Made by a program: the position numbers and the translations under genes
Shown: positions 1-61,300 of the stretch, piece by piece
How the letters are laid out: each line of letters begins with the position of its first letter
Position numbering within the stretch: the first letter of the stretch is position 1
Source of the DNA: Janthinobacterium silvisoli
GTDB taxonomy: Bacteria; Pseudomonadota; Gammaproteobacteria; Burkholderiales; Burkholderiaceae_D
Length of the DNA stretch: 64,000 bases
Direction: 5' to 3'
NCBI RefSeq assembly: GCF_014200725.1
Contig: NZ_JACHCL010000001.1
Location: 2,046,001-2,110,000, forward strand
Notes under the pieces: generated by a model
Database searches by the model: none
Seen by the model: the letters and a program-made list of their open reading frames with translations, nothing else
Told to the model about the DNA's origin: nothing

Positions 1-348
1 TCCGCCGGCGATGATCAGATGCGCTTCACCAGCCTTGATGGAGCGGGCAGCCAGACCGACCGCATCCAGGCTGGAACCGCACAGGCGGTTGATGGTGTTG
101 GCTGGGACGTCGACAGGCAGACCCGCCAGCAGCGCGGCCATGCGGCCCACGTTGCGGTTGTCTTCGCCCGCCTGGTTGGCGCAACCGTAATACACATCAT
201 CGATGGCGGCCCAGTCGACGGAGGGATTGCGCGCGATCAGCGCGGCGATCGGCAGCGCACCCAGGTCGTCGGCGCGCACGCCGGACAAGGCGCCGCCATA
301 GCGGCCAAATGGCGTACGCACGGCGTCACAGATAAAAGCTTCGTTCAT
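1..348 (-). CDS. paaJ: 3-oxoadipyl-CoA/3-oxo-5,6-dehydrosuberyl-CoA thiolase, N-terminal part
   Basis: Thiolase that performs the last CoA-dependent cleavage of the phenylacetate pathway, releasing acetyl-CoA. Only the first 116 residues are in the window; the gene runs off at base 1. The N-terminus (MNEAFICDAVRTPFGRYGG) is typical of the PaaJ/PcaF thiolases, and the nucleophilic cysteine is visible at about residue 90 in NRLCGSS. It follows paaK by 20 bp on the same strand, so it is the distal gene of the paa operon as seen here. PcaF of the beta-ketoadipate pathway is nearly identical in this region, so the symbol rests mainly on the paa context. Confidence 0.88.
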   Translation of the reverse strand, partial: MNEAFICDAVRTPFGRYGGALSGVRADDLGALPIAALIARNPSVDWAAIDDVYYGCANQAGEDNRNVGRMAALLAGLPVDVPANTINRLCGSSLDAVGLAARSIKAGEAHLIIAGG

Positions 349-368
349 GGTCTATCCTGCAAAATCGT

Positions 369-1697
369 TTAAGAAAAATTCTTCGGACGCTGGTCGATCA
401 CGCGCTTGGCCTTGCCCGTCAGGGTGCGTTCGATGCCGGAAGCGGCCACCAGGCGCACGCGCGTGCTCACGCCCACATGCGTCTTGATGCGGTGTTCCAG
501 TTCACGCGCCAGGCCATCCGTCTCGCTGGCTGACAGGCTTGCCGTCAGGTCGAGGCGCAGTTCGGCGATCACTTCCAGCTTGTCCAGGTGGCCGTCGCGC
601 GTAACGATGAGCTGGTATTGCGGCGCCAGCTTCGGCATTTTCAGGATCAGTTCTTCTATCTGCGTGGGAAAGACATTCACGCCACGGATAATCAGCATGT
701 CGTCCGAGCGGCCCGTGATCTTGCCGATGCGGCGCATCGAGCGCGAGGTGGGCGGCAGCAAGCGCGTCAAATCGCGCGTGCGGTAGCGGATGATGGGCAA
801 CGCCTCTTTCGACAGCGAGGTAAACACCAGTTCGCCTTCTTCGCCGTCTGGCAGCACCTCGCCCGTATCCGGGTCGATGATCTCGGGGTAGAAATGGTCT
901 TCCCAAATCACCGGTCCATCCTTGCTCTCGATGCATTCGGACGCTACACCTGGGCCCATCACTTCCGACAAGCCATAGATATCGACGGCGTCGATACCGG
1001 CCCGTGCCTCGATTTCGGCGCGCATGGCGTCGGTCCACGGTTCGGCGCCAAAGATGCCCACTTTCAGCGACGATTCTGCCGGGTCCAGGCCCTGGCGCGT
1101 GAATTCCTCGATGATGTTGAGCATGTACGAAGGCGTGACCATGATGATGGATGGCTTGAAATCCTGGATCAGCTGCACCTGTTTTTCCGTCTGCCCGCCG
1201 GACATGGGGATCACCGTGCAACCCAGGCGCTCGGCGCCATAGTGCGCGCCCAAACCACCCGTAAACAAGCCATAGCCGTAGGAGATATGCACCATGTCGC
1301 CCGCGCGGCCACCACCGGCGCGGATCGAGCGCGCCACCACATTGGCCCAGGTGTCGATATCGTTTTGTGTGTAACCGACCACCGTGGCCTTGCCCGTGGT
1401 ACCGCTCGATGCATGGATGCGCACCACTTGTTCGCGCGGCACGGCAAACAGGCCAAACGGGTAATTGTCGCGCAAGACCTTTTTATCGGTGAATGGAAAT
1501 TTGGCCAGGTCGGCCAGCGATTTCAAGTCGTCCGGATGCACGCCCGCCGCATCGAAGGCGGCGCGGTAATGGGGCACATTATCGTAAGCGTGTTTGAGCG
1601 ACCATTGCATGCGTTCGAGCTGCAGCGCCTGCAATTCATCCTTGCTGGCGCGTTCGATCGCCTCCAGTTCATTCGGCTCTGGATTACGTTGGACCAT
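369..1697 (-). CDS. paaK: Phenylacetate-CoA ligase
   Basis: Activates phenylacetate with ATP and CoA to phenylacetyl-CoA, the first step of the aerobic hybrid pathway, in the cytoplasm. The 442-residue product has the normal PaaK length. The AMP-binding P-loop SSGTTGK lies at about residues 97-103, the YGLSE adenylate-binding motif is in the middle, and the small C-terminal lid domain carries GRSDDMLIIRGVNVFPTQIE. It sits between paaI and paaJ in one minus-strand operon. Upstream of the ATG the minus strand reads GAGGAGACAAG-like, a good ribosome binding site. Confidence 0.96.
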   Translation of the reverse strand: MVQRNPEPNELEAIERASKDELQALQLERMQWSLKHAYDNVPHYRAAFDAAGVHPDDLKSLADLAKFPFTDKKVLRDNYPFGLFAVPREQVVRIHASSGTTGKATVVGYTQNDIDTWANVVARSIRAGGGRAGDMVHISYGYGLFTGGLGAHYGAERLGCTVIPMSGGQTEKQVQLIQDFKPSIIMVTPSYMLNIIEEFTRQGLDPAESSLKVGIFGAEPWTDAMRAEIEARAGIDAVDIYGLSEVMGPGVASECIESKDGPVIWEDHFYPEIIDPDTGEVLPDGEEGELVFTSLSKEALPIIRYRTRDLTRLLPPTSRSMRRIGKITGRSDDMLIIRGVNVFPTQIEELILKMPKLAPQYQLIVTRDGHLDKLEVIAELRLDLTASLSASETDGLARELEHRIKTHVGVSTRVRLVAASGIERTLTGKAKRVIDQRPKNFS

Positions 1698-1718
1698 GCT
1701 TGTCTCCTCAATGGTTCT

Positions 1719-2171
1719 TTAATTATTTTCTGGTATGACGCTGCCGGCCACACGGATCGACTTGCCACGGAACAGGGCAATCGCGCGGCCATCCTGGTTA
1801 CTCACCTTGACGTCATAGATACCGCTCTTGCCAGCCAGCGACTGCTCTACCGCTTCCGCCGCCAGCACGTCGCCTTTGTGAGCTGGCGCAAGGTAATCGA
1901 TGGTGCAGGCTGCGCCCACGGTATTCATGTTGTAGCTGTTGCAGGCAAAGGCGAAAGCGCTGTCGGCCAGCGCGAAAATAAAACCGCCATGGCAGCTCAG
2001 GTGACCGTTCAACATATCGGGGCGCACCGTCATCGTCATGCGTGCATAACCGGGGCGCACCTCAGCCAGGGCCATGCCCATGGCGAGGGTGGCGCTGTCG
2101 CGCGATAGCATGGAGGCGGCGGACGCTTCGGCCAGGGCTTGCGCGCCTTGCAGGGAATCTGCCTTATGCAT
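1719..2171 (-). CDS. paaI: Hydroxyphenylacetyl-CoA thioesterase PaaI (hotdog fold)
   Basis: Hotdog-fold thioesterase that hydrolyses stalled phenylacetyl-CoA intermediates and so frees CoA. The 150-residue protein carries the PaaI signature HGGFIFALADSAFAFACNS at residues 61-79, with the catalytic aspartate at residue 70. The ATG at 2171 overlaps the stop of paaH (ATGCATAA, 8 bp), which indicates translational coupling and fixes the start; an upstream extension of the frame reads into paaH and is a shadow. Downstream is paaK. Confidence 0.93.
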   Translation of the reverse strand: MHKADSLQGAQALAEASAASMLSRDSATLAMGMALAEVRPGYARMTMTVRPDMLNGHLSCHGGFIFALADSAFAFACNSYNMNTVGAACTIDYLAPAHKGDVLAAEAVEQSLAGKSGIYDVKVSNQDGRAIALFRGKSIRVAGSVIPENN

Positions 2172-3729
2172 GGAATGGCGCTCCGCTGGCGAGTTTGCGG
2201 CGCAGCAGCGGCGAGACCCGATAACGGTCCTCCCCATAACCTGACGCCAGATTCTGCAGCACAGTGACGATGTGGCTGATGCCCACGTCATCGGCCCAGG
2301 CCAGCGGTCCGCGCGGATAATTGACGCCTTTTTGCATGGCGATATCGACGGCGGCGGCTGTGCACACGCCTTGGTTGACGGCGTCGGCGGCCTCGTTGGC
2401 CAACATGGCCACGGTGCGCATGACCGCCATGCCCGCCACGTCGTCCAGGAGGGTGACGGTGAAACCGGCTGCCTGGAACAGGCCCACGACGGCGGCATAG
2501 GCGGCGTCGCTGCACTGGTCGGCACGGGCCAGGGCGATGCGTTTGGCACTGGCGTAGTCGAGCGCCAGGTCGAACAGCACCGTATCTGCATGTTGATTGT
2601 CGTGCGCGCGCTGGGTAGCGCTGCGGCCATCGGTCAGGTAGATCGCGGCGCCATTGCAATGCAGGGCCGGCGCCGCATCATGCGCCTGGCCTTCGAGCAG
2701 CACGCGGCTGCTGACGGTAAAACCCGCTTGCTCCAGCCGCTGCACCAGGCTGTGGACGATGCCGCTATGGCTACGGCCATCGCCACCGATGGCTGCGCTC
2801 AGGGTGACCACCTCAGGTTTCGGCTGCGCCGCTTCTGCCTGCGCTACGGGAGTGGTAGCGCCTTCGCCATAGGCATAAAAGCCACGGCCCGATTTGCGGC
2901 CCAGGAATCCGGCGTTGACCATTTCCTGCTGTAGCACGGAAGGCGTAAAGCGCGGATCGTTGAAATAGGCGCCAAACACGGATTGGGTGACGGAGAAATT
3001 GACATCATGGCCGATCAGGTCCATCAACTCGAATGGGCCCATGCGGAAACCGCCCGCCTCGCGCAGCACGGCGTCGATGGTGGCAGGGTCGCCCGCCTGT
3101 TCGCTGAGCAAACGCCAGCCTTCCGCATAGAATGGACGGGCCACGCGGTTGACGATAAAGCCAGGTGTCGATTTCGCGTGCACGGGTTTCTTGCCCCAGG
3201 TAGTAGCCGTGTCATAAACGATGGCGGCGACAGTCTCGCTGGTGGCCAGGCCACTGATTACTTCCACCAGCGCCATCAAGGGCACGGGATTAAAGAAGTG
3301 CATGCCGACCAGGCGTTCCGGGCGGCGCAGTTTGGCGGCAATCGCTGTCACGGAAATCGACGAGGTATTGGTGGCCAGGATGCAGTCGTCGGCCACCAGC
3401 GCTTCCAGTTCCGCAAAAACGCTGCGCTTGACGTCGAGGTTTTCCACGATGGCTTCCACCACCAGCATAGCATCTGCCACGTCGGCCAGGCTGCCCGCCG
3501 CCTGCAGGCGGGCCGTGGCGGCTAGCGCTTCGTCTGCCGTCATGCGGCCCTTTTCAGCCAGCTTGCCATACATCTTGCCGATATCGGCCAAGGCTTTGCT
3601 GACGGCTTCTGGGCGCGTGTCGTACAACTTGACGCGATAACCTGCGGCCGCCGCGACTTGCGCGATGCCCGCGCCCATGGCGCCACTGCCGATCACGGCG
3701 ACGACTGAATTTTTTTGCAATGCTGCCAT
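2164..3729 (-). CDS. paaH: 3-hydroxyacyl-CoA dehydrogenase PaaH
   Basis: NAD-dependent oxidation of 3-hydroxyadipyl-CoA to 3-oxoadipyl-CoA. The 521-residue protein begins with a Rossmann fold (GSGAMG at residues 14-19) and has the NTSS (121-124) and HFFNP (144-148) motifs of the family, with His144 as the catalytic base. After the C-terminal domain ending in LGRKSGRGFY there is a second, diverged dehydrogenase C-terminal-like half that ends around residue 515. It is somewhat longer than E. coli PaaH (about 475 residues). It starts 9 bp after paaG and overlaps paaI by 8 bp. Confidence 0.94.
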   Translation of the reverse strand: MAALQKNSVVAVIGSGAMGAGIAQVAAAAGYRVKLYDTRPEAVSKALADIGKMYGKLAEKGRMTADEALAATARLQAAGSLADVADAMLVVEAIVENLDVKRSVFAELEALVADDCILATNTSSISVTAIAAKLRRPERLVGMHFFNPVPLMALVEVISGLATSETVAAIVYDTATTWGKKPVHAKSTPGFIVNRVARPFYAEGWRLLSEQAGDPATIDAVLREAGGFRMGPFELMDLIGHDVNFSVTQSVFGAYFNDPRFTPSVLQQEMVNAGFLGRKSGRGFYAYGEGATTPVAQAEAAQPKPEVVTLSAAIGGDGRSHSGIVHSLVQRLEQAGFTVSSRVLLEGQAHDAAPALHCNGAAIYLTDGRSATQRAHDNQHADTVLFDLALDYASAKRIALARADQCSDAAYAAVVGLFQAAGFTVTLLDDVAGMAVMRTVAMLANEAADAVNQGVCTAAAVDIAMQKGVNYPRGPLAWADDVGISHIVTVLQNLASGYGEDRYRVSPLLRRKLASGAPFHA

Positions 3730-3738
3730 AGCGACTCC

Positions 3739-4530
3739 TTAATGTCCTTTGAATTGCGGTGCGCGCTTTTCCATGAAGGCGGCCACGCCTTCGCGGTAAT
3801 CGTCGCTGTTACCGAGTTCGCTCATCATGCCGGCTTCCAGCGCCAGCTGCTGCGGCAAAGTATTGGCGCCGCTGGCGGCCAGCGCCTGCTTGGTAAAGGC
3901 CAGGCCCTTGGTAGGCGCGGTGGAAAAGTGCACGGCCAGCTTGCGGGTTTCCTCAGCCAGCTGCGCATCGTCGACGCATTTCCAGATCAGCCCCCAGTCT
4001 TCGGCTTTTTCCGCCGTCAGTTTTTCACCGAGCATGGCCAACCCCATGGCGCGCGCCGAACCGATCAGGCGCGGCAGGAAAAAGGTGCCGCCCGTATCCG
4101 GGATCAAGCCCAGTTTGCAGAATACTTCCACGAAGCTGGCCGATTTACCGGCGATGACGATATCGCAGGCCAGCGCCAGGTTGGCGCCCGCGCCGGCCGC
4201 CACGCCATTGACGGCGCAAATCACCGGCATGGCCAAGGCTTTCAGCGCCAGCACCAGCGGCGCATAGTTTTTTTCCACCGACTCGCCCAGGTCCACGCCT
4301 TTCGAACCTGGCTCCACGGCGCGGTCGGACAAATCCTGGCCCGCGCAAAAGCCGCGGCCCGCCCCCGTCAGCACGAAGACGCGCACGGATTTGTCTGCGT
4401 TGACGCGTCCAATCGCGTCGCGCACTTCTTCGTGCATCGCTTGCGTAAAGCTGTTGAGTTTATCGGGACGATTCAGGGTCAACGTGGCGATGCCCTGCTC
4501 GATGGTGAAGAGGATGTTTTGGTAGCTCAT
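3739..4530 (-). CDS. paaG: 1,2-epoxyphenylacetyl-CoA isomerase
   Basis: Crotonase-fold enzyme that isomerises ring-1,2-epoxyphenylacetyl-CoA to the oxepin-CoA. The 263 residues align in my memory with E. coli PaaG along the whole length: GRGFCAGQDL at 58-67 forms the first oxyanion strand, NGVAAGAGAN at 108-117 the second, and the catalytic aspartate is Asp145 in GLIPDTGGT. The end DYREGVAAFMEKRAPQF is also PaaG-like rather than PaaF-like. It lies between paaE and paaH. The hydratase PaaF, normally next to it in E. coli, is absent from this cluster. Confidence 0.93.
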   Translation of the reverse strand: MSYQNILFTIEQGIATLTLNRPDKLNSFTQAMHEEVRDAIGRVNADKSVRVFVLTGAGRGFCAGQDLSDRAVEPGSKGVDLGESVEKNYAPLVLALKALAMPVICAVNGVAAGAGANLALACDIVIAGKSASFVEVFCKLGLIPDTGGTFFLPRLIGSARAMGLAMLGEKLTAEKAEDWGLIWKCVDDAQLAEETRKLAVHFSTAPTKGLAFTKQALAASGANTLPQQLALEAGMMSELGNSDDYREGVAAFMEKRAPQFKGH

Positions 4531-4551
4531 GGCGTGTCTCGCTAAGTTGTT

Positions 4552-5631
4552 TTATTCAGCCTGGTCGAAATCGACGACCACTTTATCGGTCAAAGGAAAA
4601 CTCTGGCAGCTCAAAACGAAGCCGCGCGCCACTTCGTAGTCTTCCAGCGCGTAGTTGACGTCCATCTCGATCTTGCCTTGCGTGACCTTGCAGCGGCAGG
4701 TGGAGCACACTCCCCCCTTGCACGAATAGCGCATGTCTATGCCTTGACGCAGGCCGGCGTCGAGGATGGATTCCTTGTCGCGGTCCATGGTAAAGCTGGT
4801 GTGGTAACCATCCATGATGACGGTCACTTCCGTCTCCTGCCGCGCGGCCGTATCAAGCTGGGCACGCGGCTTGTGGGCCTTTTTCGGGATGCTGGCGGCG
4901 AACAGCTCGATCTTGATATTCTGCTTGGGCATGCCGGCCGCCTGCAGGGCATTCGATACGCCCAGCATCATGTCTTCCGGACCGCAGATGAAGGCGTGGT
5001 CGTAGTCTTCGACCTTGATCCAGTGCTGCAAAAACTGCTCGCATTTTTCCTGCGTGATGCGGCCATTGAACAATTCGATATCCTGCTGCTCGCGGCTCAT
5101 CACGTAGACCAGGTTCAAGCGCTCCAGGTACACATCCTTCAAGTCCGTCAATTCTTCCTTGAAGATGACGGAAGACGATGCGCGGTTGCCGTAAAAGAGC
5201 GTGAAGCGGCTCAAGGGTTCGGCCAGCAAAGTGGTCTTGATGATGGAGAGGATGGGCGTGATGCCGCTGCCAGCCGCAAACGCCAGGTAGTGCTTGCGAT
5301 TCACGCAATCGAGCGGCACGTTGAAGTGGCCCATGGGCGGCATCACGTCGATGCGGTCGCCCGCTTTCAGGGTGTCATTCGCCCAGGTTGAGAACGCACC
5401 ACCCGGCGTGCGCTTGATGGCCACGCGCAGGGTACCGTCCTGCACCGCCGAACAGATGGAATAGGAGCGGCGCACATCTTCCGCATCGATGTGGGCGCGC
5501 AGGGTCAGGTGCTGGCCCTGCTGGAAGCGGAACTGTGGCTGCAATTCGGCCGGCACGGCAAACGTGACGGCGATGGTGTCGCGCGTTTCATGGCGCACCT
5601 CGGCCACGGACAGCGGATAAAATTTACTCAT
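4552..5631 (-). CDS. paaE: Phenylacetyl-CoA epoxidase reductase subunit PaaE
   Basis: Electron-transfer component of the phenylacetyl-CoA 1,2-epoxidase: it passes electrons from NADPH through FAD and a 2Fe-2S cluster to the diiron PaaA. The 359-residue protein has an FAD-binding RSYS motif (55-58), a nucleotide-binding segment AAGSGITPIL, and a C-terminal plant-type ferredoxin domain with CKGGVCSTC and a fourth cysteine in LSCQSF. It follows paaD by 38 bp and precedes paaG by 21 bp. Confidence 0.95.
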   Translation of the reverse strand: MSKFYPLSVAEVRHETRDTIAVTFAVPAELQPQFRFQQGQHLTLRAHIDAEDVRRSYSICSAVQDGTLRVAIKRTPGGAFSTWANDTLKAGDRIDVMPPMGHFNVPLDCVNRKHYLAFAAGSGITPILSIIKTTLLAEPLSRFTLFYGNRASSSVIFKEELTDLKDVYLERLNLVYVMSREQQDIELFNGRITQEKCEQFLQHWIKVEDYDHAFICGPEDMMLGVSNALQAAGMPKQNIKIELFAASIPKKAHKPRAQLDTAARQETEVTVIMDGYHTSFTMDRDKESILDAGLRQGIDMRYSCKGGVCSTCRCKVTQGKIEMDVNYALEDYEVARGFVLSCQSFPLTDKVVVDFDQAE

Positions 5632-5669
5632 GCTTCATCTCCAGTTTCTGCGCAAGGCGTGCCTGTTTT

Positions 5670-6224
5670 TTAGTGGCACTTGAAGTAGTCAAACGGTTCG
5701 CGGCAATCGAGGCATTTATACAGGGCCTTGCACGGCGTGGAGCCGAACTGGCTGGTCAGCTGCGTGTGGGTCGAACCACAGTTCGGGCAGATCACGTCCA
5801 GCTTCGGTATGGCGTGGCGCTTGACTCCCGCCCCTGCACCACCTCGCAAGCCGCTGATATCGATCACCTGCTGCTGCGGCGGCGCGATGCCATAGCCTTT
5901 CAGTTTGGCCCTGCCAGTCTCGCTCATCCAGTCCGTGGTCCATGCAGGCGCCAGCTGGTTCACCAGCGTGACCTTGGCCACACCATGGCTGTGCAAGGCA
6001 TCGGTGACGGCGTCGGCGATCACCTGCATGGCTGGGCAGCCAGAATACGTGGGCGTGATGGTCACGATGCACTCATCCCCATCCACCGCATTGACCACAT
6101 CGACGGCGCGCACGATGCCCAGGTCCACCACTGAAATGACGGGGATTTCCGGGTCCGGCACTTCGCCCAGCCATGCCCAGACCTGGGCGGCGTCCAGCGC
6201 AGCTGCACCAGCGGCGGTATGCAT
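5670..6224 (-). CDS. paaD: Phenylacetate epoxidase accessory protein PaaD (MIP18/DUF59 plus zinc ribbon)
   Basis: Small protein needed for phenylacetyl-CoA epoxidase activity and thought to help Fe-S or diiron maturation. The N-terminal half carries the MIP18/DUF59 domain (VPDPEIPVISVVDLGI and the YSGCPA motif), and the C-terminus is a zinc ribbon with CPNCGS and CLDC pairs. I chose the ATG at 6224 because it forms a TAATG junction with the paaC stop codon; a GTG at 6230, two codons upstream in the same frame, is the alternative. The product is 184 residues. Confidence 0.9.
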   Translation of the reverse strand: MHTAAGAAALDAAQVWAWLGEVPDPEIPVISVVDLGIVRAVDVVNAVDGDECIVTITPTYSGCPAMQVIADAVTDALHSHGVAKVTLVNQLAPAWTTDWMSETGRAKLKGYGIAPPQQQVIDISGLRGGAGAGVKRHAIPKLDVICPNCGSTHTQLTSQFGSTPCKALYKCLDCREPFDYFKCH

Positions 6225-6976
6225 TACCACTCCGCCCCGGGATAGGCACGCTGCAGGAACTGCATCTCGGCCAGGATAAAACCCAGGTGCTCCGTGTGGC
6301 GGCCCTGCTTGCCGCCCTTTTGCATCCAGGCGTCGGGCGCTGGCATGACCAGGGTGGCTTCGGCGAAAATCTCGGCCACGTGTTCCAGGAAAGCTGCACG
6401 CAATACCGCGCTCGAAGGCGCGATGCCGGCGTCAAACATCGCCTGGTCGACCGCGTCATAATTGAACATCTCGCCCGTGTACATCCATAGCGCGTCGGCC
6501 GCAGCCTGCGTTTTCGCATGGCTTTCCGCCGTGCCATCGCCCAGGCGCACGATCAAGTCGCCGCTGCGGCGCAAGTGATAAGTCACTTCCTTGATCGATT
6601 TTTGCGCCACTTCCACGATGCGCGGATCGCCGCACTTGAGCAGCTCGGCCAGCTGGAAGTAATGCCAGGTATCGAAGAAAAACTGGCGCATCAGGGTGTC
6701 GGCGTAATTGCCGTTCGGCTGCTCCAGCAGCAAACAGTTCTTGAAGTCGTGGGCATCGCGCAAAAAGGCGATATCGTCTTCGTCGCGGCCCGCGCCTTCC
6801 AGTTCGGCCGCATAGCTGAACCACAGGCGCGTCTGGCCCAGCAGATCGAGCGCCACATTGGTCAGCGCCATGTCTTCTTCCAGCGCCGGCCCCTTGCCGC
6901 ACAGCTGCGACAGCTGCTGGCTGAGAATCAGCGCATTGTCGCCCAGGCGCAGCAGGTAGTTGACCTTATCGTCCAT
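6224..6976 (-). CDS. paaC: Phenylacetyl-CoA epoxidase structural subunit PaaC
   Basis: Non-catalytic ferritin-like partner of PaaA in the epoxidase core. The 250-residue protein starts MDDKVNYLLRLGDNALILSQ, and has the family segments DLLGQTRLWFSYAAELEG and RQFFFDTWHYFQLAELL. The start at 6976 is preferred over an upstream extension to 7063 because the extension reads through the end of paaB as low-complexity arginine-rich sequence. It is 13 bp after paaB and joined to paaD by TAATG. Confidence 0.94.
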   Translation of the reverse strand: MDDKVNYLLRLGDNALILSQQLSQLCGKGPALEEDMALTNVALDLLGQTRLWFSYAAELEGAGRDEDDIAFLRDAHDFKNCLLLEQPNGNYADTLMRQFFFDTWHYFQLAELLKCGDPRIVEVAQKSIKEVTYHLRRSGDLIVRLGDGTAESHAKTQAAADALWMYTGEMFNYDAVDQAMFDAGIAPSSAVLRAAFLEHVAEIFAEATLVMPAPDAWMQKGGKQGRHTEHLGFILAEMQFLQRAYPGAEW

Positions 6977-6989
6977 CACGATCTCCGCA

Positions 6990-7274
6990 TCACAGGTTCT
7001 TGACTTCTTCCGGCATCGGGAAGAACGTGGGGTGGCGGTAGACCTTGCTGTTCGATGGTTCAAACAGGGCGCCCTTGTCGCCAGGGCTGCTGGCGACGAT
7101 ATCGGCCGCGCGCACCACCCAGATGCTCACACCTTCATTGCGGCGCGTGTAGACGTCGCGCGCGTGGTTGACCGCCATGGTGGCGTCGGATGCGTGCAGG
7201 CTACCCACATGCTTGTGTGCCAGGCCGTGCTGGCTGCGGATGAATACTTCCCACAATGGCCATTCTTTGCTCAT
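6990..7274 (-). CDS. paaB: Phenylacetyl-CoA epoxidase subunit PaaB
   Basis: Small bridging subunit of the epoxidase complex. The 94-residue product begins MSKEWPLWEVFIRSQHGLAH and contains the typical ARDVYTRRNEGVSIWVV and SKVYRHPTFF segments. The minus strand shows GAGGAGAACAAG just before the ATG at 7274, which decides this start over an in-frame upstream extension. It lies 23 bp after paaA. Confidence 0.95.
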   Translation of the reverse strand: MSKEWPLWEVFIRSQHGLAHKHVGSLHASDATMAVNHARDVYTRRNEGVSIWVVRAADIVASSPGDKGALFEPSNSKVYRHPTFFPMPEEVKNL

Positions 7275-7297
7275 CTTGTTCTCCTCTATTCTCTGTA

Positions 7298-8290
7298 TCA
7301 GGCTGCCGCTTTTGTATTGGCGGCTTGCTTGTCGGCGTAGGCGACCAGCGCGTCGCGGAACCACTCGCCATCGTCATACGCCTTGACGCGCGTTTGCAAA
7401 CGCTCGCGGTTGCACGGGCCATTGCCCTTCAATACATTGTTGAACTCAGCCCAGTCGATTTCGCCGAATTCGTAATGGCCTGTTTCGGGATTGAATTTCA
7501 GGTCGGGATCGGGCACGGTCAAGCCCAGGTATTCGATTTGCGGCACGGTCTGGTCAACCATGCGCTGGCGCAGTTCATCGTTCGAGAACAGCTTGATGCG
7601 CCATTGCGCCGATTGCGCGCTGTTGACGGAAGCGGCGTCGGACGGACCGAACATCATCAGCGATGGCCACCACCAGCGGTTCAAGGCATCTTGCGCCATG
7701 GCTTTCTGTTCGGGAGTGCCCTTGCACAGCGACATCATGATGTCGTAGCCCTGGCGCGCATGGAACGATTCCTCCTTGCAGACGCGAATCATGGCCCGCG
7801 CATACGGACCATAGGAGCAGCGGCACAGGGGAATCTGGTTGATGATGGCCGAACCATCGACCAGCCAGCCGATGGCGCCCATATCTGCCCACGACAAGGT
7901 GGGATAGTTAAAAATGCTGGAATATTTGGCTTTGCCCGAATGCAAGGCGGCCAGCAGCTCATCGCGCGAAACACCCAGGGTTTCCGCCGCGCTATACAAA
8001 TACAGGCCATGGCCCGCTTCATCCTGGATCTTGGCCAGCAGGATCGATTTGCGCTTCAGGGTCGGTGCGCGCGTGACCCAGTTGCCTTCTGGTAACTGAC
8101 CGACGATTTCCGAGTGCGCGTGCTGTGAAATCTGGCGTATCAGGGTCTTGCGATAGGCGTCCGGCATCCAGTCCTTGGCCTCGATCTTGATGCCTTCGTC
8201 GATGCGCGCCTGGAAAGCAAGTTCATCCTGCCCCATATCAGCTATGGAACGGACGTTTTTCAGGCCGGTTTCAACCATTTGTGCGTACAT
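7298..8290 (-). CDS. paaA: Phenylacetyl-CoA epoxidase catalytic diiron subunit PaaA
   Basis: Oxygenase subunit that epoxidises the ring of phenylacetyl-CoA. The 330-residue protein has the two carboxylate/histidine metal-binding repeats of bacterial diiron oxygenases, EAGH at residues 91-94 and EESFH at 173-177. GGGAGACAG-type ribosome binding sequence precedes the ATG at 8290; a 13-codon upstream extension is not needed. This is the first gene of the minus-strand paa operon, transcribed divergently from paaX. Confidence 0.96.
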
Positions 8291-22013: not shown

Positions 22014-23546
22014 CTAGTGCTGATAACAACTCTTCAACTGAGCATAACGATAGAAGTGGCTGGCCGGGGCCATCCTGGCACTATCGCAAGCGGGCTTGAA
22101 ATCGGTTTCTTTTTCGTTGTACAACATGCGTACCAGCGTGCTGCCCTTGCCATCCGTGTACACATCCCATTGCATATTGGCTGCCATTGGCGCCACCGTC
22201 GCGCCGCGCCACGGATTATTGTCGTAGCTATACATGGCAGCGCGCGGCAACGCTGCCGCCATGCCGGGCAAGCCAAGCATGGCCGCCATGGGGATCACGA
22301 TTTCCGCGTGGGAAAAGCGCAGCTTGGCGGCATGCGACAGGTCACCGCTGGCAACCGCGTCCACTTCCTTGAAAAAGTCGTCCAGCAAGGTGGTCGCCAT
22401 ACGGTAGTTGAGGTCGCCGTTTTCAGCGATACCCGGCCCTTTGGCATAAAACGATTGCGCATCGTCAATCGCGGCAAATACTGCGGCCTGCGCAGGCGGC
22501 ACATAGCGCGTGAAGTCGGCCGCAACTTCTTCGCGCATATCGGCCGCCGCCGCATACAGCTCGTACAGCGCCAGCGCGGCGTCGGTAGCTGAGGCGATCA
22601 CGGTATCGCCATCGCCGCTCAGGGTATTGCTGAACTTGCCGTCGGCGCTGGTGTAGCTGTAGGTGCCGGTGTTGGCGACCCGGTAGCGCCCCTGCTCCAG
22701 CGCCGCAACAAACGCTGGCGTGAACAGGCGTTCCAGCACCGCTTTTGCTGCGCTGGCCAGGCGCGGCTGCGCCAGTATCGCCGCTTCGCGGGCACGCAGC
22801 TCATCGCTCTTGAGCCAGGCCTGGTAAGACTGGCTGGCCTGGTAAGTTGCATACAGCGGATCGGCAGTGTCAGCCACTTGGTCTTGCTTGACGCTCAGTT
22901 TATGGAAATACAGCAGATAGCGGTCGGTACCCTTGGGACGGCTGGCGTGACTGGTTTCGGCGCGCGGGGCCAGCGAGTCGGGGTAGGCCAGTAGCGGCGC
23001 CAGGCTGGTTTGCTGCGCCAGCAGCGAGCGCGTGAAGAAATAGCCGCTGTCGACTGCGCGGTCCTTGCCGGAAGTGACGACGACGATCTGGCGCGACTGG
23101 CCCGCAGCGTCATTGAACAGTTGCGGCAAGCGCTGGTACAGGCGCTGCGCCAGCTGCGTGTGTTCAGCCACGCCCTGCATGGTTTCATTGCCATAGCCTG
23201 GCTTGCTGATTCCGTCCACGCCATAGCCGAGCAGAAAATTGGCCTTCATCAGTTGCCGGATATCGGGCCCCAGTTGCTGGCCCAGCGGTGTCAAAGCACC
23301 GTCCTTCTCGGCCTCTCGCCACAGATTGTAGAGCGCCAGGTCGGCCTTGAAACTGCTCAGGCCACGCGAGCCATGACGCGCCAGCAGCTGCGTATAGACA
23401 GGACGATAGCCTGGCGGCGCCGCTTCGTAGCTGGCCATATCCTGCTGCGGCGCATACGGCGTTTTGCTTTGGTAGTACTGTTCGCCGTAAGCATTGACCA
23501 GCAGCAGGGACAGCGCGGCACCGGCCGCAAGATGGTGGACTTTCAT
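22014..23546 (-). CDS. Histidine acid phosphatase, MINPP-like phytase
   Basis: Exported phosphatase likely to act on inositol phosphates. The 510-residue product has a signal peptide ending near residue 21 (VNAYG), the phosphohistidine motif RHGSR at 57-61 and the proton-donor motif HAE at 413-415. The HAE form, instead of HD, is the hallmark of multiple inositol polyphosphate phosphatases (MINPP). The motif proline of RHGxRxP is missing here (RHGSRGL). The gene follows the TonB receptor by only 3 bp, so the two are one operon. Confidence 0.87.
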   Translation of the reverse strand: MKVHHLAAGAALSLLLVNAYGEQYYQSKTPYAPQQDMASYEAAPPGYRPVYTQLLARHGSRGLSSFKADLALYNLWREAEKDGALTPLGQQLGPDIRQLMKANFLLGYGVDGISKPGYGNETMQGVAEHTQLAQRLYQRLPQLFNDAAGQSRQIVVVTSGKDRAVDSGYFFTRSLLAQQTSLAPLLAYPDSLAPRAETSHASRPKGTDRYLLYFHKLSVKQDQVADTADPLYATYQASQSYQAWLKSDELRAREAAILAQPRLASAAKAVLERLFTPAFVAALEQGRYRVANTGTYSYTSADGKFSNTLSGDGDTVIASATDAALALYELYAAAADMREEVAADFTRYVPPAQAAVFAAIDDAQSFYAKGPGIAENGDLNYRMATTLLDDFFKEVDAVASGDLSHAAKLRFSHAEIVIPMAAMLGLPGMAAALPRAAMYSYDNNPWRGATVAPMAANMQWDVYTDGKGSTLVRMLYNEKETDFKPACDSARMAPASHFYRYAQLKSCYQH

Positions 23547-23549
23547 ACC

Positions 23550-25709
23550 TTAGAAGTCTACCCGTACATTCACACTGGCGGTGCGCGGCGAGCCCACGTT
23601 CAGGTAGTTCTCCTGGTAGTAAGTCCAGTATTTGCGGTTAGCCAGGTTCGAGATATTCGCGCGCACGCTGACCATCTTGCCGAAGTAGCGGTGACGGTAG
23701 TTGAAGCCCGCGTCCAACAGCGCATACGATGGCAAGGTGTTGGCGTTGGCCGCATCCATCGCCAGCTCACCCAGGTACTGGGCGCCCGCGTGCAGGGCCA
23801 GGCCCGGCAAGACTTCGCGCCAGGTGGCTTGCACCGAAGCCTGGCGGCGCGGCGCACCGACGGCGCGCTTGCCGCTGTAGCCGGGCGCCGCATCTTGCAA
23901 GGTGGCATCGAGTAGCATGATGCCGCCTTCGATCGACACATTCTTCGCTGCCTGCAGCACCGAGTTCAATTCCAGGCCCTGGTAACGCGTCTGGCCATCT
24001 GCCACGTAGACGTTGCTGGCATTAGTGTACTGGGCGCCCCGCTCAATCTGGAACACGGCTGCGCTGGCATTCCAGAAGCTGCGTTCCGTCTTGACGCCGA
24101 ACTCGGTCTGCTTGCTCTTGATCGGTGCAAAAGTCTGCAAGGCATTGGTCGCCGAAGTCGGCGCGCTGGAGGCTTGCTCCAGGGCTTCGACATAGCTGCC
24201 ATACAGCGTGGTGTCGGCGGCTGGCTTGTACATCAGCGCGATGGTCGGCGTGGTTTTGTTGGCTGGATAACTGGCAATCACGGCGCCCTTGGTGGAATAA
24301 GCGGTGTCCTGGTACTGCGTGTAGCGCAGGCCGGCCAGTACAGACCAGTTATCGGTGAGCTTGAGCGTATCGCTGGCAAACACCGCATCCTGGCGCGTGG
24401 TTTCATCCTGGTACAAGCCACCGCTGTAATTGGTGTTCGTGGCGTTGAAGATGGTCGGTGCATACAGGTTGCCGGTGCCCAGGTAGGGTTTCGGCGTGAC
24501 AACAGAATCGGTCGAATCCAGGTTTTGCGACATGACGCCCGCCACCACTTCATGCTGCAGGCCGAAGGTAGCGAACTTGCCGCTGAGACTGGCTTGTACC
24601 TGGTCAAAATGGTAGTCGTGGCGCTCGGACGTGACGCGGTCCTTGTAGTTGCCTGTATTGCTGGTGATGTAGTACTGGTCCTTCTTGTAGACGCGGCTCG
24701 AATCGGAGGTGCGGTACGAGAAATTGGCGGTCCAGTCCGGCGCCAAGCGGTATTCCAGGCCCGTCGTGTACAGCGAATATTCGACATCGCTGCCGGCGCC
24801 TATGCTATTGAGCTTGCTGTCGCCGGCTATCGGCGCAGGCACCTTGAAGCTCGGTGAAATGACGACGTCGGTGCCGCCGACAGTGGCGCGGCGCTGGTAC
24901 AGCACATCGTAGCTCAGGGTCAGATCCCGGCTCAGGCGCCAGTCCAGGTTCAGGCTGGCGGCATTGCGGTTGATGGAGCCGCTTTCTTCCTTCACGCCGC
25001 CATCTTCATGCAGCAAATTAAAACGGTAGCCAAAGCTGCCATCGTCGCCCAGGCGGCCACCGGTATCGATATGCTCCTTGATCGCACCGCCTTCCTGGTA
25101 ACCCAGCGCAGCGCTGAAACTCTTGTCGGTGGTCGGGCGCTTGCTAACATAGTTGACGATACCGCCTGGCGAGCCGAAGCCGTACATATAACCGGACAAG
25201 CCTTTCAGCGCTTCCACGCTTTCAAACATTTCCAGCGGCATTTCCGTGCCACGGTTGATATTGGCCAGGCCATCGACCTTGTAACCATTCAAGTCATCGA
25301 GGCGCAAGCCGCGCATCTGGATGGTGGCCGGGTGGGTGCTGATCGGCGGGCTGATGGCGGTGACGGAGGCATCGTATTTCAGTACTTCGGAAATGCTGGT
25401 GGCCAGGCGGTCTTCGATTTCATCGCTGCTGACGGCCTTGGTGGAAAATGGCGTATCGAGTTCCGACTTGCGGCCCAGGGCGCCGCTGCTGACGCTATCG
25501 CTGAGCTTTTTCTTTTCAACCGTGGCTTTGACTACCACGCGGGAAACCTCACCGGAATCCGCACCGGAAGCCGGGCTGGAAGCGTCAGCATCGGTGGCAT
25601 TAGCGGCACTAAAGGCGGCAGTATGCAGCGCGCACAGGCCGGCGGCTACCAGGGCCAGATGCAAACGGGTGACGCGCGGGTGTTTCGTGGAAGACAAGGT
25701 GGGGAACAT
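23550..25709 (-). CDS. TonB-dependent siderophore-type receptor
   Basis: Outer-membrane receptor of the siderophore branch. The 719-residue product has a signal peptide (to about residue 38), a short N-terminal extension with no STN signalling domain, a TonB-box-like VVVKATVE, a plug domain with ATIQMRGLRLDDLNGYKVDG and FGSPGGIVNYVSKRP, and a barrel that ends SVNVRVDF. The last segment ANRKYWTYYQENYLNVGSPR is typical of FhuA/FecA-like siderophore receptors. It precedes the phytase gene in the same operon, which suggests uptake of a phosphorylated or iron-chelating ligand; this is inference. Confidence 0.9.
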   Translation of the reverse strand: MFPTLSSTKHPRVTRLHLALVAAGLCALHTAAFSAANATDADASSPASGADSGEVSRVVVKATVEKKKLSDSVSSGALGRKSELDTPFSTKAVSSDEIEDRLATSISEVLKYDASVTAISPPISTHPATIQMRGLRLDDLNGYKVDGLANINRGTEMPLEMFESVEALKGLSGYMYGFGSPGGIVNYVSKRPTTDKSFSAALGYQEGGAIKEHIDTGGRLGDDGSFGYRFNLLHEDGGVKEESGSINRNAASLNLDWRLSRDLTLSYDVLYQRRATVGGTDVVISPSFKVPAPIAGDSKLNSIGAGSDVEYSLYTTGLEYRLAPDWTANFSYRTSDSSRVYKKDQYYITSNTGNYKDRVTSERHDYHFDQVQASLSGKFATFGLQHEVVAGVMSQNLDSTDSVVTPKPYLGTGNLYAPTIFNATNTNYSGGLYQDETTRQDAVFASDTLKLTDNWSVLAGLRYTQYQDTAYSTKGAVIASYPANKTTPTIALMYKPAADTTLYGSYVEALEQASSAPTSATNALQTFAPIKSKQTEFGVKTERSFWNASAAVFQIERGAQYTNASNVYVADGQTRYQGLELNSVLQAAKNVSIEGGIMLLDATLQDAAPGYSGKRAVGAPRRQASVQATWREVLPGLALHAGAQYLGELAMDAANANTLPSYALLDAGFNYRHRYFGKMVSVRANISNLANRKYWTYYQENYLNVGSPRTASVNVRVDF

Positions 25710-25909: not shown

Positions 25910-26761
25910 TTACTTGGCGGTCCAGGCCACCACGTCTTGCTGCTGCTCGCCCAGGCCGGCGATACCGAGGCGCAGGCTGTCGCCTTTTTTCAGGAAGCGC
26001 TGCGGCTTGCGGCCCTGGCCTACGCCTGGCGGCGTGCCGGTGGCGATGATGTCGCCCGCTTCCAGGGTCATGAATTGCGACAGATAGCTGACGATTTGCG
26101 CCACATTAAAAATCATGGTTTGCGTGTTGCCGGTCTGCATGCGCTTGCCATTCAATTCCAGGTACAGGTCCAGGTCTTGCACGTCATACACTTCATCGCG
26201 CGTCACCAGCCATGGGCCGACCGGGCCGAAGGTATCGCAACCCTTGCCCTTGTCCCATTGCGGACCGCGTTCCAGCTGGAACGAGCGCTCGGACAAGTCA
26301 TTCACGACGCAATAGCCGGCCACGTATTTCAGCGCCTCTTCTTCGCTGACGTATTGTGCGCGCGTGCCGATCACCACGCCCAGTTCCACTTCCCAATCCG
26401 TCTTTTTCGAGCCTTTCGGCAAGATCACATTATCGTCCGGACCATTCAGGCAAGTCACCGCCTTCATGAAAACGATAGGTTCGGCCGGCAAGGGCATGCC
26501 CGCTTCGGCCGCGTGGTCGGCGTAATTCAAGCCGATGCCGATGAATTTGCCGACCTTGGCCAGCGGCACGCCGAAACGTGGGTTGCCGCGTACCAGGGGC
26601 AGCGTTTTTTCATCGATCTTGGCCAGCTTGCGCAAGGCCTTGTCGGACAGTTGTGCACCATCAATATCGGCGATCACGCCGGACAGGTCGCGCAATTTGC
26701 CTTCTTCATCGATCAGGCCTGGTTTTTCCTTGCCTGGACGTCCGTAACGAACGAGTTTCAT
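25910..26761 (-). CDS. Fumarylacetoacetate hydrolase (FAH) family protein
   Basis: FAH-fold hydrolase or lyase acting on a 2,4-diketo or related acid. The 283-residue product has the typical GIGLNYADHAAEAG at about residues 74-87, the metal ligands in WEVELGVVIG, and the signature DIIATGTPPGVGQG near residue 240. Similar sequences are annotated as ureidoglycolate lyase or 2,4-diketo-3-deoxy-sugar-acid hydrolase, so the substrate is open. Its ATG lies inside the MFS gene (56-bp overlap), so it is the third gene of the KamA-MFS-FAH operon. Confidence 0.88.
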   Translation of the reverse strand: MKLVRYGRPGKEKPGLIDEEGKLRDLSGVIADIDGAQLSDKALRKLAKIDEKTLPLVRGNPRFGVPLAKVGKFIGIGLNYADHAAEAGMPLPAEPIVFMKAVTCLNGPDDNVILPKGSKKTDWEVELGVVIGTRAQYVSEEEALKYVAGYCVVNDLSERSFQLERGPQWDKGKGCDTFGPVGPWLVTRDEVYDVQDLDLYLELNGKRMQTGNTQTMIFNVAQIVSYLSQFMTLEAGDIIATGTPPGVGQGRKPQRFLKKGDSLRLGIAGLGEQQQDVVAWTAK

Positions 26762-28049
26762 AGTCTTCCTTGGAGTTAATCATTGCCGCTGAGCAGGCTG
26801 CCATTTTACCGGATGCACCGGCCTGCCTGATATGCTCCATGAAAAACAGCAACAGCCCCGGCAATTGCAGGGCCGCCACAATCGCGAACGCAAGGCGGTA
26901 AGCCTCGGGCGGATAATGATGCTGGGCATCGACTGGCCACAGCCCCAGGATCAGGCCAAAGCCCGCCTGCACCAGAAAAGCCCCCGTAAAAATCAGCAGG
27001 TTCAGACAGGTAGCCGCCCGCCCCGTCAAACTGGGCGGCATGCTTTGCGCGACAATCGCATATTCCAGGCCGGCCACCGTACCCAGCAAGGTAAACAACA
27101 CCGATAACAAGGGCAAGCCTGGCTGGTAGTTGCTGGCCATGCCCAGTTGCACCAGCACAAACAAGACAATGCCGATAGCGGCCACTTGCATGGTCGTGAT
27201 ACCGTGCCGCGCCGCCCATTCCGTCAGCATACCCATGGCGATGGCGCCAAAGATGACGGCGGCCATGCCCAGGTACAAAAGATACGCCACATTATCGTCA
27301 GACAAGCCGCCCACGTCGCTGAGCCAGCGCCCTACCCACAAGCCCTGGATGCCAAAAAACACGGTATGCGGCAACAGGATCAAACGGATGGTGCGGCGAA
27401 AGGCAGGGTCGGCATACACATCGCGCAGGCGGATAGCAGGCGTAGTGGGCGCCTGACGTGCAGGCATGGCTGGAGTCAGCAGGCGGATCAACAAAACCAG
27501 AGCCAGCGCCGCAACCGCCAGCCCCAGGAACAGGCCGCGCCAATCCGTATAATGCAGGGCCAGCTTGACAGGCATGGTGGCCGTGGCCGCGCCCAGGCCA
27601 CCCACTGCGATCAGATAACCATGCATGGATGGCAGCCGCGCAGGCGCGACCGCGCCGGAAATGGCTTTCACGGCAGCCATGAAACAGCCGCCCAGGCCGG
27701 CCCCCATCACGGCGCGCGCCCACATCAGTTCGGCAAAGCTATGGCCCCGGCTGAACAGGAATACGCCGAGCGCCGCCACTAGCAGCAACAGCAGTTGCAC
27801 CGTACGCGGGCCATAACGGTCAAGCGCCATGCCAACTGGCAATTGCACCAGCGCAAACGCCAGGAAAAACACGCTGGTCAGCAAACCCAGCTGCGTCGCT
27901 GTCAGCGGCACGGTCGCCAGCAATTCTGAAGTCAGCACGGCATTCACGCCACGCAGCAGACAGGACAGATAGTGCCCCAGCGCATACGGTAAAAATATCA
28001 GGCAAAACACGGCCACGCCGGATCGTGGTGGCAAGCCGGCGCGGTCCAT
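26706..28049 (-). CDS. MFS transporter
   Basis: Twelve-helix major facilitator protein of the inner membrane, 447 residues. The conserved loop between helices 2 and 3 is present as GMALDRYGPRTVQ at about residues 73-85. The last 25 residues after the final helix are hydrophilic and are read through the start of the FAH gene, giving a 56-bp overlap. It starts 2 bp after the KamA-family gene. It probably moves the substrate or product of the two enzymes; the direction is unknown. Confidence 0.87.
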   Translation of the reverse strand: MDRAGLPPRSGVAVFCLIFLPYALGHYLSCLLRGVNAVLTSELLATVPLTATQLGLLTSVFFLAFALVQLPVGMALDRYGPRTVQLLLLLVAALGVFLFSRGHSFAELMWARAVMGAGLGGCFMAAVKAISGAVAPARLPSMHGYLIAVGGLGAATATMPVKLALHYTDWRGLFLGLAVAALALVLLIRLLTPAMPARQAPTTPAIRLRDVYADPAFRRTIRLILLPHTVFFGIQGLWVGRWLSDVGGLSDDNVAYLLYLGMAAVIFGAIAMGMLTEWAARHGITTMQVAAIGIVLFVLVQLGMASNYQPGLPLLSVLFTLLGTVAGLEYAIVAQSMPPSLTGRAATCLNLLIFTGAFLVQAGFGLILGLWPVDAQHHYPPEAYRLAFAIVAALQLPGLLLFFMEHIRQAGASGKMAACSAAMINSKEDYETRSLRTSRQGKTRPDR

Positions 28050-28051
28050 GT

Positions 28052-29425
28052 TCAGGCTGCCTGCACCAGGTGGATCACGCGCTGCGGTGCGTGCACTACT
28101 TCCGGCAGGCTAGCATCGAGTTCGAAGAAGAATTTCTCCTGGCCAAATGCAGGCCGTAAATCGTCGAACCAAGTCGCTTCTGCATCGAACTTCGCATAAA
28201 ACGGCCGCCGTACCCAGTCCGGATTACGCGCCTGCAAGAACTGCAGTGCAAATACTTTTTCACCACCGATATTCACCACGCCATCGATCACGATCTTGCC
28301 GGGAAAAGCGCTCATGGAAGGCCCGCGCACCGTACGCGACAAACCGGATACCTGCTGGTAAGCGGCCTGGAAAATTTCGTGGGCCCTGGCAAGCGGTACT
28401 TCAAAATAACCGCGCGGGCCCGTGTCGCGCTCGACAAACATGTAATACGGAATCGCCCCCAAGCGCGTGCCCGTCTGCCACAGCTCGGCCCAGCTATTCG
28501 GATCTTCATTGATGTGGCGTATCAGTGGGCCCTGCATGCGCAAGGTGGCGCCCGTCGAGACGATGCGCTTGACGGCTTGCTGGGCTATATCCTGGCGCAA
28601 TTCGACGGCATGGCTGTAATGGCCCATGATGGCCAGGTTTTTGCCCGCCTTGACGATGCGTTCAAACAGGCGCAGCAAGTCGTCCGCATCGCGGTCGGAC
28701 ACAAAACGCTGGGGCCAGTACGCCACCGACTTGGTGCCGATACGGATATTCTGGATATGAACCAGCGCCGGGTCCAGCAAGGGTTCCAGATAGGCGGCCA
28801 GCGAACGCGTATTCATGATCATCGGGTCGCCACCCGTGATCAGCACGTCGGTCACTTCCGTATGCAGCTTAAGGTAAGCGGCCAGTTCAGTCGATTCGCG
28901 CGCATCAAACTTCATGTCGTCCATGCCGACAAACTGGGGCCAGCGGAAACAGAAGGTGCAATACGCATGGCAAGTCTGGCCGGCGCTGGGGAAAAACAGC
29001 ACGGTTTGCGCATATTTGTGCTGCAAGCCACGCACCGGTTCGCCATTCATGGTTGGGACGTTATGCGTCATCTGGCCCGCCGGATGCGGGTTCATGCCCA
29101 GGCGAATGCCGCGTACATACGCATCGATGGCGGCCTTGTCCTGCCGCACCAGCACCAGCTCGCGCAAATGGGCATATTGCTCGGGCGGCAGCATGTCGCG
29201 GTGCGGGAACACCAGGCGATAGATCGGATCGTCGGGAATATTGTTCCATTCGATCAATTGATCGAGCACGTATTCATTGGTTCGGAACGGCAAGACGTGT
29301 GATACCACTTGCACTGCTTCGCGCTGTTCGGCAGGGAGCCAGTCCCATTGCCGCGCCTGGCTAATGGTCTGCCGCGTATAGGGTTTGAATTTGACGCTGG
29401 AAAGTTCATTACTGTCATCGGACAT
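28052..29425 (-). CDS. KamA-family radical SAM aminomutase
   Basis: Radical S-adenosylmethionine, PLP-dependent enzyme related to lysine 2,3-aminomutase. The 457-residue product has the 4Fe-4S motif CHAYCTFC (Cys152, 156, 159), the SAM-binding GGDP (198-201) and a retained candidate PLP lysine, Lys377 in AFPGK. The segment where lysine aminomutase has an aspartate that grips the side-chain amine (YxxDL) reads YYMFVERD here, so lysine may not be the substrate. AGGAG before the ATG at 29425 decides the start over an upstream in-frame ATG at 29461. It is too long for EpmB and no epmA or efp is nearby. First gene of an operon with the MFS and FAH genes. Confidence 0.87.
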   Translation of the reverse strand: MSDDSNELSSVKFKPYTRQTISQARQWDWLPAEQREAVQVVSHVLPFRTNEYVLDQLIEWNNIPDDPIYRLVFPHRDMLPPEQYAHLRELVLVRQDKAAIDAYVRGIRLGMNPHPAGQMTHNVPTMNGEPVRGLQHKYAQTVLFFPSAGQTCHAYCTFCFRWPQFVGMDDMKFDARESTELAAYLKLHTEVTDVLITGGDPMIMNTRSLAAYLEPLLDPALVHIQNIRIGTKSVAYWPQRFVSDRDADDLLRLFERIVKAGKNLAIMGHYSHAVELRQDIAQQAVKRIVSTGATLRMQGPLIRHINEDPNSWAELWQTGTRLGAIPYYMFVERDTGPRGYFEVPLARAHEIFQAAYQQVSGLSRTVRGPSMSAFPGKIVIDGVVNIGGEKVFALQFLQARNPDWVRRPFYAKFDAEATWFDDLRPAFGQEKFFFELDASLPEVVHAPQRVIHLVQAA

Positions 29426-29712
29426 GCTCGACTCCTGTGCGGTAGTGATAACAACTTCCATTAAAGAGCATGAAAATCAGGCCATCTCCGGCCATATTCT
29501 TTTCATGGTGCGATATCGCCATGCTGGGAAAGTCATCATAGTTCTTGCCAGAAAGAACCAATTGCCGCACATCAACAAGTCTTCTACTGCATGTATGTAA
29601 TGAGACATGCAATTAGGCAAGACTTAAGTTTGTTCAATCGCAATTCCATGCAGACCAGTGCGACGTAAATTACGGTTTGGCAACACCTCTCTCGATTTCA
29701 CAAGGAGTCTTC
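29426..29712. other. Divergent intergenic region of 287 bp
   Basis: AT-rich sequence between the KamA-family gene and the Cache-protein gene, with no coding sequence seen; it should hold promoters for both directions. Confidence 0.5.
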
Positions 29713-55220: not shown

Positions 55221-55233
55221 CGCTTCCTCCTTC

Positions 55234-57170: not shown

Positions 57171-57175
57171 ACTAC

Positions 57176-57964: not shown

Positions 57965-57977
57965 GTTGTCTCCTTGC

Positions 57978-58007
57978 GCCCGGCTCGCGCTGTCTTGTCG
58001 GCCGGGC
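57978..58007 (-). other. Intercistronic hairpin between hutH and hutG
   Basis: GCCCGGC (57978-57984) pairs with GCCGGGC (58001-58007) with a 16-base loop and no T run; it may set the ratio of upstream to downstream hut mRNA. Confidence 0.5.
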
Positions 58008-58023
58008 TGCTGGTGTTCATGAT

Positions 58024-59583: not shown

Positions 59584-59596
59584 ATTCGTTTTCACT

Positions 59597-61300
<1,704 letters not shown>

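Follow-up and report, generated by a model that had tools for sequence, protein, structure and literature searches.

Here we describe a three-gene locus of Janthinobacterium silvisoli that centres on kam, a gene for a predicted radical S-adenosylmethionine (SAM) enzyme of the KamA family. The locus lies in a stretch of 64,000 nucleotides (contig NZ_JACHCL010000001.1, positions 2,046,001 to 2,110,000; hereafter the window, whose own numbering is used throughout), which is part of a 5.9-Mb genome, and its genes are read from the minus strand. The kam gene (28052–29461) encodes a protein of 469 aa, which open reading frame (ORF), profile and alignment evidence identifies as a putative 2,3-aminomutase of the SAM- and pyridoxal 5'-phosphate (PLP)-dependent type; in-frame ATG codons stand at 29461 and 29425. 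It is followed, after a gap of 2 bp (28050–28051), by a gene for an MFS transporter (26706–28049) and then by a gene for an FAH-fold hydrolase (25910–26761), the last two sharing 56 bp of reading frame (26706–26761, from the ORF coordinates). An earlier sequence-only reading had described these three genes, the gap and the overlap, all of which we confirmed, and had ended the locus at 29425, which is one possible start of kam. It had also supposed that the three genes act together on a substrate other than lysine, perhaps in a route that ends in an FAH-type cleavage. Judged from aligned sequences, kam represents a separate KamA clade, distinct and widespread, with what appears to be a non-lysine side-chain pocket.

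The family models placed the protein among KamA-type enzymes without assigning it to any of them. Six such models of NCBIfam matched, none at its cut-off: the scores were 121.2 bits for TIGR00238 (the KamA subfamily; cut-off 199.2), 102.5 for AblA_like_2 (396.25), 97.8 for TIGR03820 (AblA, lysine 2,3-aminomutase; 525.4), 87.2 for TIGR03821 (EpmB; 369.3) and 79.7 for the arginine aminomutase model (600), the sixth being the glutamate 2,3-aminomutase model discussed below. A profile search of the genome returned kam as its single KamA-family match. The sole solved-structure match of the protein is lysine 2,3-aminomutase (LAM) 2a5h, with which only residues 140–373 align well in the phmmer match. 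When the protein is aligned with 2a5h, the motif C164-H-A-Y-C168-T-F-C171 (28949–28972), the GGDP at residues 210–213 and Lys389 (28295–28297) correspond to the iron–sulfur (Fe-S), SAM and PLP residues of LAM, and Arg173 (28943–28945) corresponds to LAM Arg134, the residue that binds the substrate carboxylate. The cofactor residues named in the sequence-only reading, in which the PLP lysine was numbered 377 from the later start, were thus confirmed, as was the segment (P)YYMFVERD. To compare relatives we drew up a residue table, in which 192 clade rows contained duplicates from loci that had been fetched again; the 156 distinct core sequences are quoted here. All 156 carry the three cysteines, the arginine and the lysine, and GGDP is present in the window protein. 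It is highly improbable, in our estimate, that the kam product has the KamA fold but is no aminomutase, being engaged in some other radical PLP chemistry or acting on a protein or RNA target: a conserved C-terminal segment, the score below the KamA subfamily cut-off and neighbours that vary across the class would fit such a role, and against it stand the invariant PLP lysine and carboxylate arginine and the repeated association of the clade with small-molecule gene clusters.

The side-chain pocket sets the clade apart. In LAM, Asp293 and Asp330 hold the side-chain amine of lysine. The first of these positions is occupied in the window protein by Arg345 (28427–28429), the proposed specificity switch, and is Arg in 156/156 clade sequences; the second is occupied by Ser382 (28316–28318), with Ser in 148 clade sequences, Val in seven and Ile in one. 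By comparison, 30 TIGR00238-type sequences, EpmB-like and AblA-like, which were the best-scoring loci of their search, all have Asp at 293 and an acidic residue at 330 (Glu in 25, Asp in five). Relative to LAM the window protein also has Thr in place of Arg116. Among more distant relatives, Arg at the 293 position recurs in six loci (L172, L187–L189, L247 from Rhizobium and L248 from Paenibacillus) and Met is found in two (L186 and L190); L236, L237 and L251 lie outside the table. The earlier suspicion of a non-lysine side-chain segment is borne out, since both acids that would pair the lysine amine are replaced in every clade sequence.

In public annotation, members of the clade, including many plasmid homologues, are often named lysine 2,3-aminomutase. 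An ordinary enzyme of this kind, making beta-lysine, would share the cofactor residues observed here and would be expected to find LAM as its solved match. However, the replacement of both side-chain acids and the score against the AblA model, far below its cut-off, speak against it, as does the lack of any match in the genome to AblB, the beta-lysine acetyltransferase, and we regard this explanation as very improbable. The sequence-only reading had remarked that no known beta-lysine or EF-P modification gene is near; the AblB result upholds the beta-lysine part, the search having covered AblB and not the EF-P and EpmA genes. EpmB, which acts in EF-P beta-lysylation, belongs to the same superfamily as kam but differs from it in that the sampled TIGR00238-type sequences keep Asp at 293 and in that the window protein scores below the EpmB cut-off.

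Of 233 sequences, one was dropped as a copy of the window gene (L001), and a 250-aa length filter removed none. After de-replication at 80% identity the kam clade comprised 56 members and was monophyletic with moderate support (FastTree, 0.70), and seven actinobacterial sequences were nested within it (0.95). Among 195 sampled genomes of the family, 48 gave a match to kam over the search threshold and 44 have kam at 72% identity or more, the difference being a contig-edge fragment with a LysR gene beside a partial kam (genome G060) and three distant matches at 26–27%. Within the genus of the window, 12 of 13 genomes carry kam. The search of the class matched 42/369 genomes including the window's own, the others at 34–58% identity, and that of the phylum 19/398, six of them distant (31–37%). 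On plasmids, some KamA match was found in 137 records, in 20 of which the match spans 80% or more of the query. A plasmid of Rhizobium etli (L247) has, near nif genes and followed by an MFS gene, a relative at 34% that shares this Arg, and relatives at 34–36% are listed for many other rhizobial plasmids. The sole relative in a scan of viral collections (L251, 3454–4797 of an IMG/VR contig; 53%) is a gene resembling the kam clade which adjoins a gene for TFIIB, and because of this neighbour an archaeon or a virus of archaea is the probable source of the contig. In the open-licence literature that we searched, no paper naming such a clade in its title or the start of its abstract was found.

The second main observation is that kam and the MFS gene travel as a pair in Oxalobacteraceae, beyond chance. 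An orthologue of the transporter at 55% identity or more is present in 44 of the family genomes (57 matched; 13 at 37–40% were left out), 43 of which also have kam, so that co-occurrence is 43/44 in both directions (Fisher P = 6e-41, with relatedness ignored). The exceptions are one genome with kam and no MFS gene (G027) and one with the reverse (G170). Loci of 80 relatives were examined, of which 71 were counted and nine were set apart because they lack the MFS gene (six Paraburkholderia, two Trinickia and the metagenome-assembled genome UBA6018); having been chosen for that lack, these nine serve for description and not as a test, and one has less than 3 kb downstream. The MFS gene directly follows kam in 69/71 loci. 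These neighbour counts rest on tblastn, and at unannotated loci genes were predicted with a home-made codon-usage caller, which performed poorly in some Paraburkholderia loci and called no genes in L164 or L167. The gene after the MFS gene differs among relatives; it may encode FAH, a 2-oxoglutarate (2OG)-Fe oxygenase, a serine hydrolase or, in some Massilia, a sugar-dehydrogenase-like protein, and in some relatives the oxygenase or serine hydrolase gene is inserted between MFS and FAH.

The FAH gene, by contrast, is independent of kam. Its product matches NF053535, the model for 2,4-didehydro-3-deoxy-L-rhamnonate hydrolase, over its full length and just below the curated cut-off (476 bits, cut-off 500), its closest solved relative is 8gsr, an enzyme of that name, and a paralogue in the same genome is of a different FAH subtype; nothing ties such a rhamnonate-hydrolase-type activity to kam. 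In at least 89 of the 195 family genomes FAH is present at 69% identity or more, in 44 together with kam and in 45 without a strong kam match, G060 with its kam fragment at a contig end being among the latter. Where both occur, they are usually close: FAH is on the kam contig and at most 9.3 kb away in 42/44 kam genomes, and at most 1.6 kb away in 19, which taken alone favours a link. However, FAH was kept in the same neighbourhood at 7/13 kam-less loci that were fetched (L222–L228 of L222–L234). Moreover, in a congener, G072, the flanks align to the window while kam and most of the MFS gene, corresponding to 26829–29665, are gone, leaving the Cache-side and FAH-side blocks 165 bp apart. Loss of the pair in G072 is the simpler reading, because kam occurs in 12 of the 13 genomes of the genus. 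Since FAH stays at loci without kam, including this one, its closeness to kam is inherited synteny, with FAH the older neighbour.

These data bear on the proposal that kam, MFS and FAH form a catabolic pathway, in which a class III aminotransferase encoded nearby would first give a beta-keto acid for FAH to cleave. FAH abuts or overlaps the MFS gene in 28/71 loci and lies in the fetched flank of 52/71, an aminotransferase gene is convergent in 34/71, and in UBA6018 and G027 an aminotransferase gene directly follows kam, all of which, with the closeness noted above, would fit. Yet 45 of the at least 89 FAH genomes have no strong kam match, FAH persists where kam and MFS are absent, it was nearby in 0/9 of the MFS-less loci and in 0/43 of those that the searches of class and phylum had given, and in the window's genome the nearest relative of the aminotransferase is about 0.79 Mb away. 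We consider such a catabolic role improbable, and the FAH distribution and the G072 site led us to reject the three-gene pathway as such. Of the idea that the three genes act together, the kam–MFS part therefore stood and the FAH part did not, as was also the outcome of the co-occurrence check that the sequence-only reading had recommended; a final FAH step in that route is not supported, given also that the gene after MFS varies. That reading had further stated that its novel-pathway idea would fall if KamA homologues usually occurred without these neighbours, and here too the three-gene pathway fell while the non-lysine specificity held.

Elsewhere in the proteobacteria the setting of kam is different. 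Neither MFS nor FAH was near kam in 8/8 Paraburkholderia and Trinickia loci or in UBA6018, which belongs to Oxalobacteraceae, and a LysR gene is divergent from kam in all nine (GcvA-like in the two scanned). A LysR gene with kam followed by a class III aminotransferase gene was seen in two loci (L080 and L235). In the 43 clade loci of the class and phylum searches (L140–L171 and L175–L185; flanks of at most 8 kb, in some cases shortened where the contig stopped), no MFS or FAH gene and no LysR gene of this kind was found near kam. Three of these 43 have an aminotransferase gene (35–37%) resembling BioA, named by eye; the three genomes are from the class, two of them from one family, and we judged the association possibly incidental. 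A distant relative (L172, 32–34%) lies in a LysR-led set which, by eye, includes coenzyme A (CoA)-transferase subunits and a thiolase, together with a HemL-like aminotransferase, and a beta-amino-acid degradation operon is a plausible reading of this set.

The homologues in biosynthetic gene clusters, whose membership of the clade was observed directly, offer a hint of the substrate. In Streptomyces sp. NBC_00334, kam (53%) has on one side a gene for a hydrolase of the proline iminopeptidase type and on the other one for a PLP enzyme of aminotransferase fold, in a type I polyketide synthase (PKS) cluster that also encodes two adenylation enzymes, an acyltransferase and a lone carrier protein. 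The best solved matches are 3wmr for the hydrolase, 5jjq/7dq5/5jjp and 8k4r/6akd for the adenylation enzymes and 5czc/5czd for the acyltransferase. 7dq5, among the top matches of one adenylation enzyme, bears the PDB title putative ATP-dependent b-aminoacyl-ACP synthetase. The remaining titles are unspecific; from their codes we take these entries to be VinJ, IdnL1/CmiS6, IdnL7 and VinK, enzymes of macrolactam starter units. The cluster has the look of one that makes a macrolactam from a beta-amino-acid starter; in the starter cassette, several names in which are our own presumed identifications, a clade member stands beside a PLP enzyme. The same PLP enzyme (50% identity) adjoins kam in Amycolatopsis sp. 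AA4. No glutamate mutase was annotated in the 125–228 kb stretch of NBC_00334, for which the gene table is incomplete.

In the biosynthesis of the macrolactam incednine, beta-glutamate is an intermediate that is decarboxylated by IdnL3, and the radical SAM enzyme IdnL4 is the proposed glutamate 2,3-aminomutase; disruption of idnL4 confirms its involvement (PMC11284099). A genome-mining study uses IdnL4 together with IdnL3 as a marker of 3-aminobutyrate macrolactams (PMC10662134). Beta-glutamate is also described as a known osmolyte of methanogens that occurs in a few bacteria as well, although early nuclear magnetic resonance studies gave evidence against its origin from a glutamate aminomutase in methanogens (PMC1224877).

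From the Arg345 pocket, the macrolactam setting and the IdnL4 genetics together we favour, at a probability of about 0.5, the reading that kam is a radical SAM/PLP 2,3-aminomutase for a substrate with an acidic side chain, most likely converting L-glutamate to beta-glutamate (3-aminoglutarate), with the MFS protein as its partner; these lines of evidence fall short of proof for the window enzyme, and we infer the reaction, the substrate and the direction of transport. The Fe-S cluster would cleave SAM, the resulting 5'-deoxyadenosyl radical would abstract hydrogen from C3 and the PLP-bound amine would move from C2 to C3, while Arg345, in place of the Asp that pairs the lysine amine, should pair the distal carboxylate. 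In Oxalobacteraceae the dedicated transporter would then export the product or import the substrate, with FAH, whose start is overlapped by the MFS frame, taking no part as an independent older neighbour. A stand-alone or transporter-paired aminomutase would fit an osmolyte-type solute or an exported metabolite. The likeness to IdnL4 is that of a radical SAM aminomutase encoded, together with a PLP enzyme, among genes for a macrolactam built on a beta-amino acid, the setting of the NBC_00334 clade member, whereas the partner of the window enzyme is an MFS transporter and not a PKS. Glutamate 2,3-aminomutase, which Ruzicka and Frey reportedly described in 2007, is said to carry Lys332 at the LAM Asp293 position; kam would share with it the reaction and has a cationic residue at the same place, Arg rather than Lys, and the clade has Ser, Val or Ile rather than the Asn of the reference enzyme at LAM-330.

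Several points weigh against glutamate as the substrate. Arg345 would fit any anionic or hydrogen-bonding side chain. The kam protein scores 80.4 bits against TIGR04368, the glutamate 2,3-aminomutase model, far under its cut-off of 650, and the Streptomyces homologue is likewise low (85.4 bits); the kam clade would therefore be a lineage separate from the curated glutamate enzyme. The AlphaFold model, built with 42 close homologues, has a mean pLDDT of 61.9, which does not suffice for searching by fold or for modelling the active site. The comparison with IdnL4 is one of description and setting, not of IdnL4 sequence, and activity of IdnL4 in vitro has not been observed (PMC11284099). Finally, most loci of the class search have kam amid varying neighbours that give no hint of a pathway, and the clusters with a nonribosomal peptide synthetase (NRPS) and dihydroxyphenylglycine-type genes, or with SidA, cupin and MetRS-like genes, need not use beta-glutamate.

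The last of these are found on plasmids. On one of Streptomyces cellulosae (L244), kam adjoins genes for an NRPS, a type III PKS and an enoyl-CoA hydratase, a set that we take to be dihydroxyphenylglycine-like. On plasmids from two phyla, of Rhodococcus sp. DK176 (L245) and Burkholderia arboris (L240), kam heads a set encoding a lysine/ornithine N-hydroxylase, a cupin, a MetRS-like protein and an ATP-grasp protein, with a saccharopine-dehydrogenase-like protein in addition in Rhodococcus and FAD oxidoreductases and a CoA-transferase in B. arboris; to us this set resembles the cassettes that form hydrazine (N–N) bonds.

Such diversity, from PKS and NRPS clusters to SidA/MetRS-like sets and LysR–aminotransferase operons, would also suit 2,3-aminomutases of other anionic or polar amino acids, such as 2-aminoadipate or an amino acid that is hydroxylated or contains sulfur, the substrate differing by lineage, and so would an Arg345 that is invariant next to a LAM-330 position that varies. 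On the other side, genetic work on an enzyme type from a comparable setting exists only for IdnL4, which has been assigned to glutamate, and on balance we think this alternative rather unlikely. That the family comprises aminomutases of novel specificity paired with a transporter is well supported, and the main uncertainty concerns the substrate. We also put forward, tentatively, a wider proposal in which the misnamed Arg-type clade is a second, independent lineage of synthases for beta-glutamate or another acidic beta-amino acid, found in proteobacteria, in antibiotic clusters of actinobacteria and on one probably archaeal contig with a TFIIB gene, with the Oxalobacteraceae transporter secreting or taking up the beta-amino acid. 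We know of no report of a beta-glutamate-type metabolite from Oxalobacteraceae.

Around the locus, a gene pair for a TonB siderophore-type receptor and a histidine phosphatase (22014–25709) separates FAH from a small conserved gene; it is probably a recent insertion, because it was seen within the fetched flanks of only 1/80 relatives (L002), L049 having only a weak 32% receptor match. Inspection by eye of the first residues of the translations suggests a set for phenylacetate degradation at 1–8236 and one for histidine utilisation at 53994–61288. A link to chemotaxis through divergent Cache/MCP genes was set aside, as synteny is just as strong for the genes around them.

For all clade sequences that were examined, the pocket speaks against lysine 2,3-aminomutase, the name often given in public annotation. 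As Arg345 is a single mutable residue, the substrate question is directly testable, and the kam–MFS pair is a compact system in which to look for the physiological role. If the enzymes act on glutamate, the clade would supply the unproven first step of the 3-aminobutyrate macrolactams, and beta-glutamate metabolism would be implied in common soil and water bacteria.

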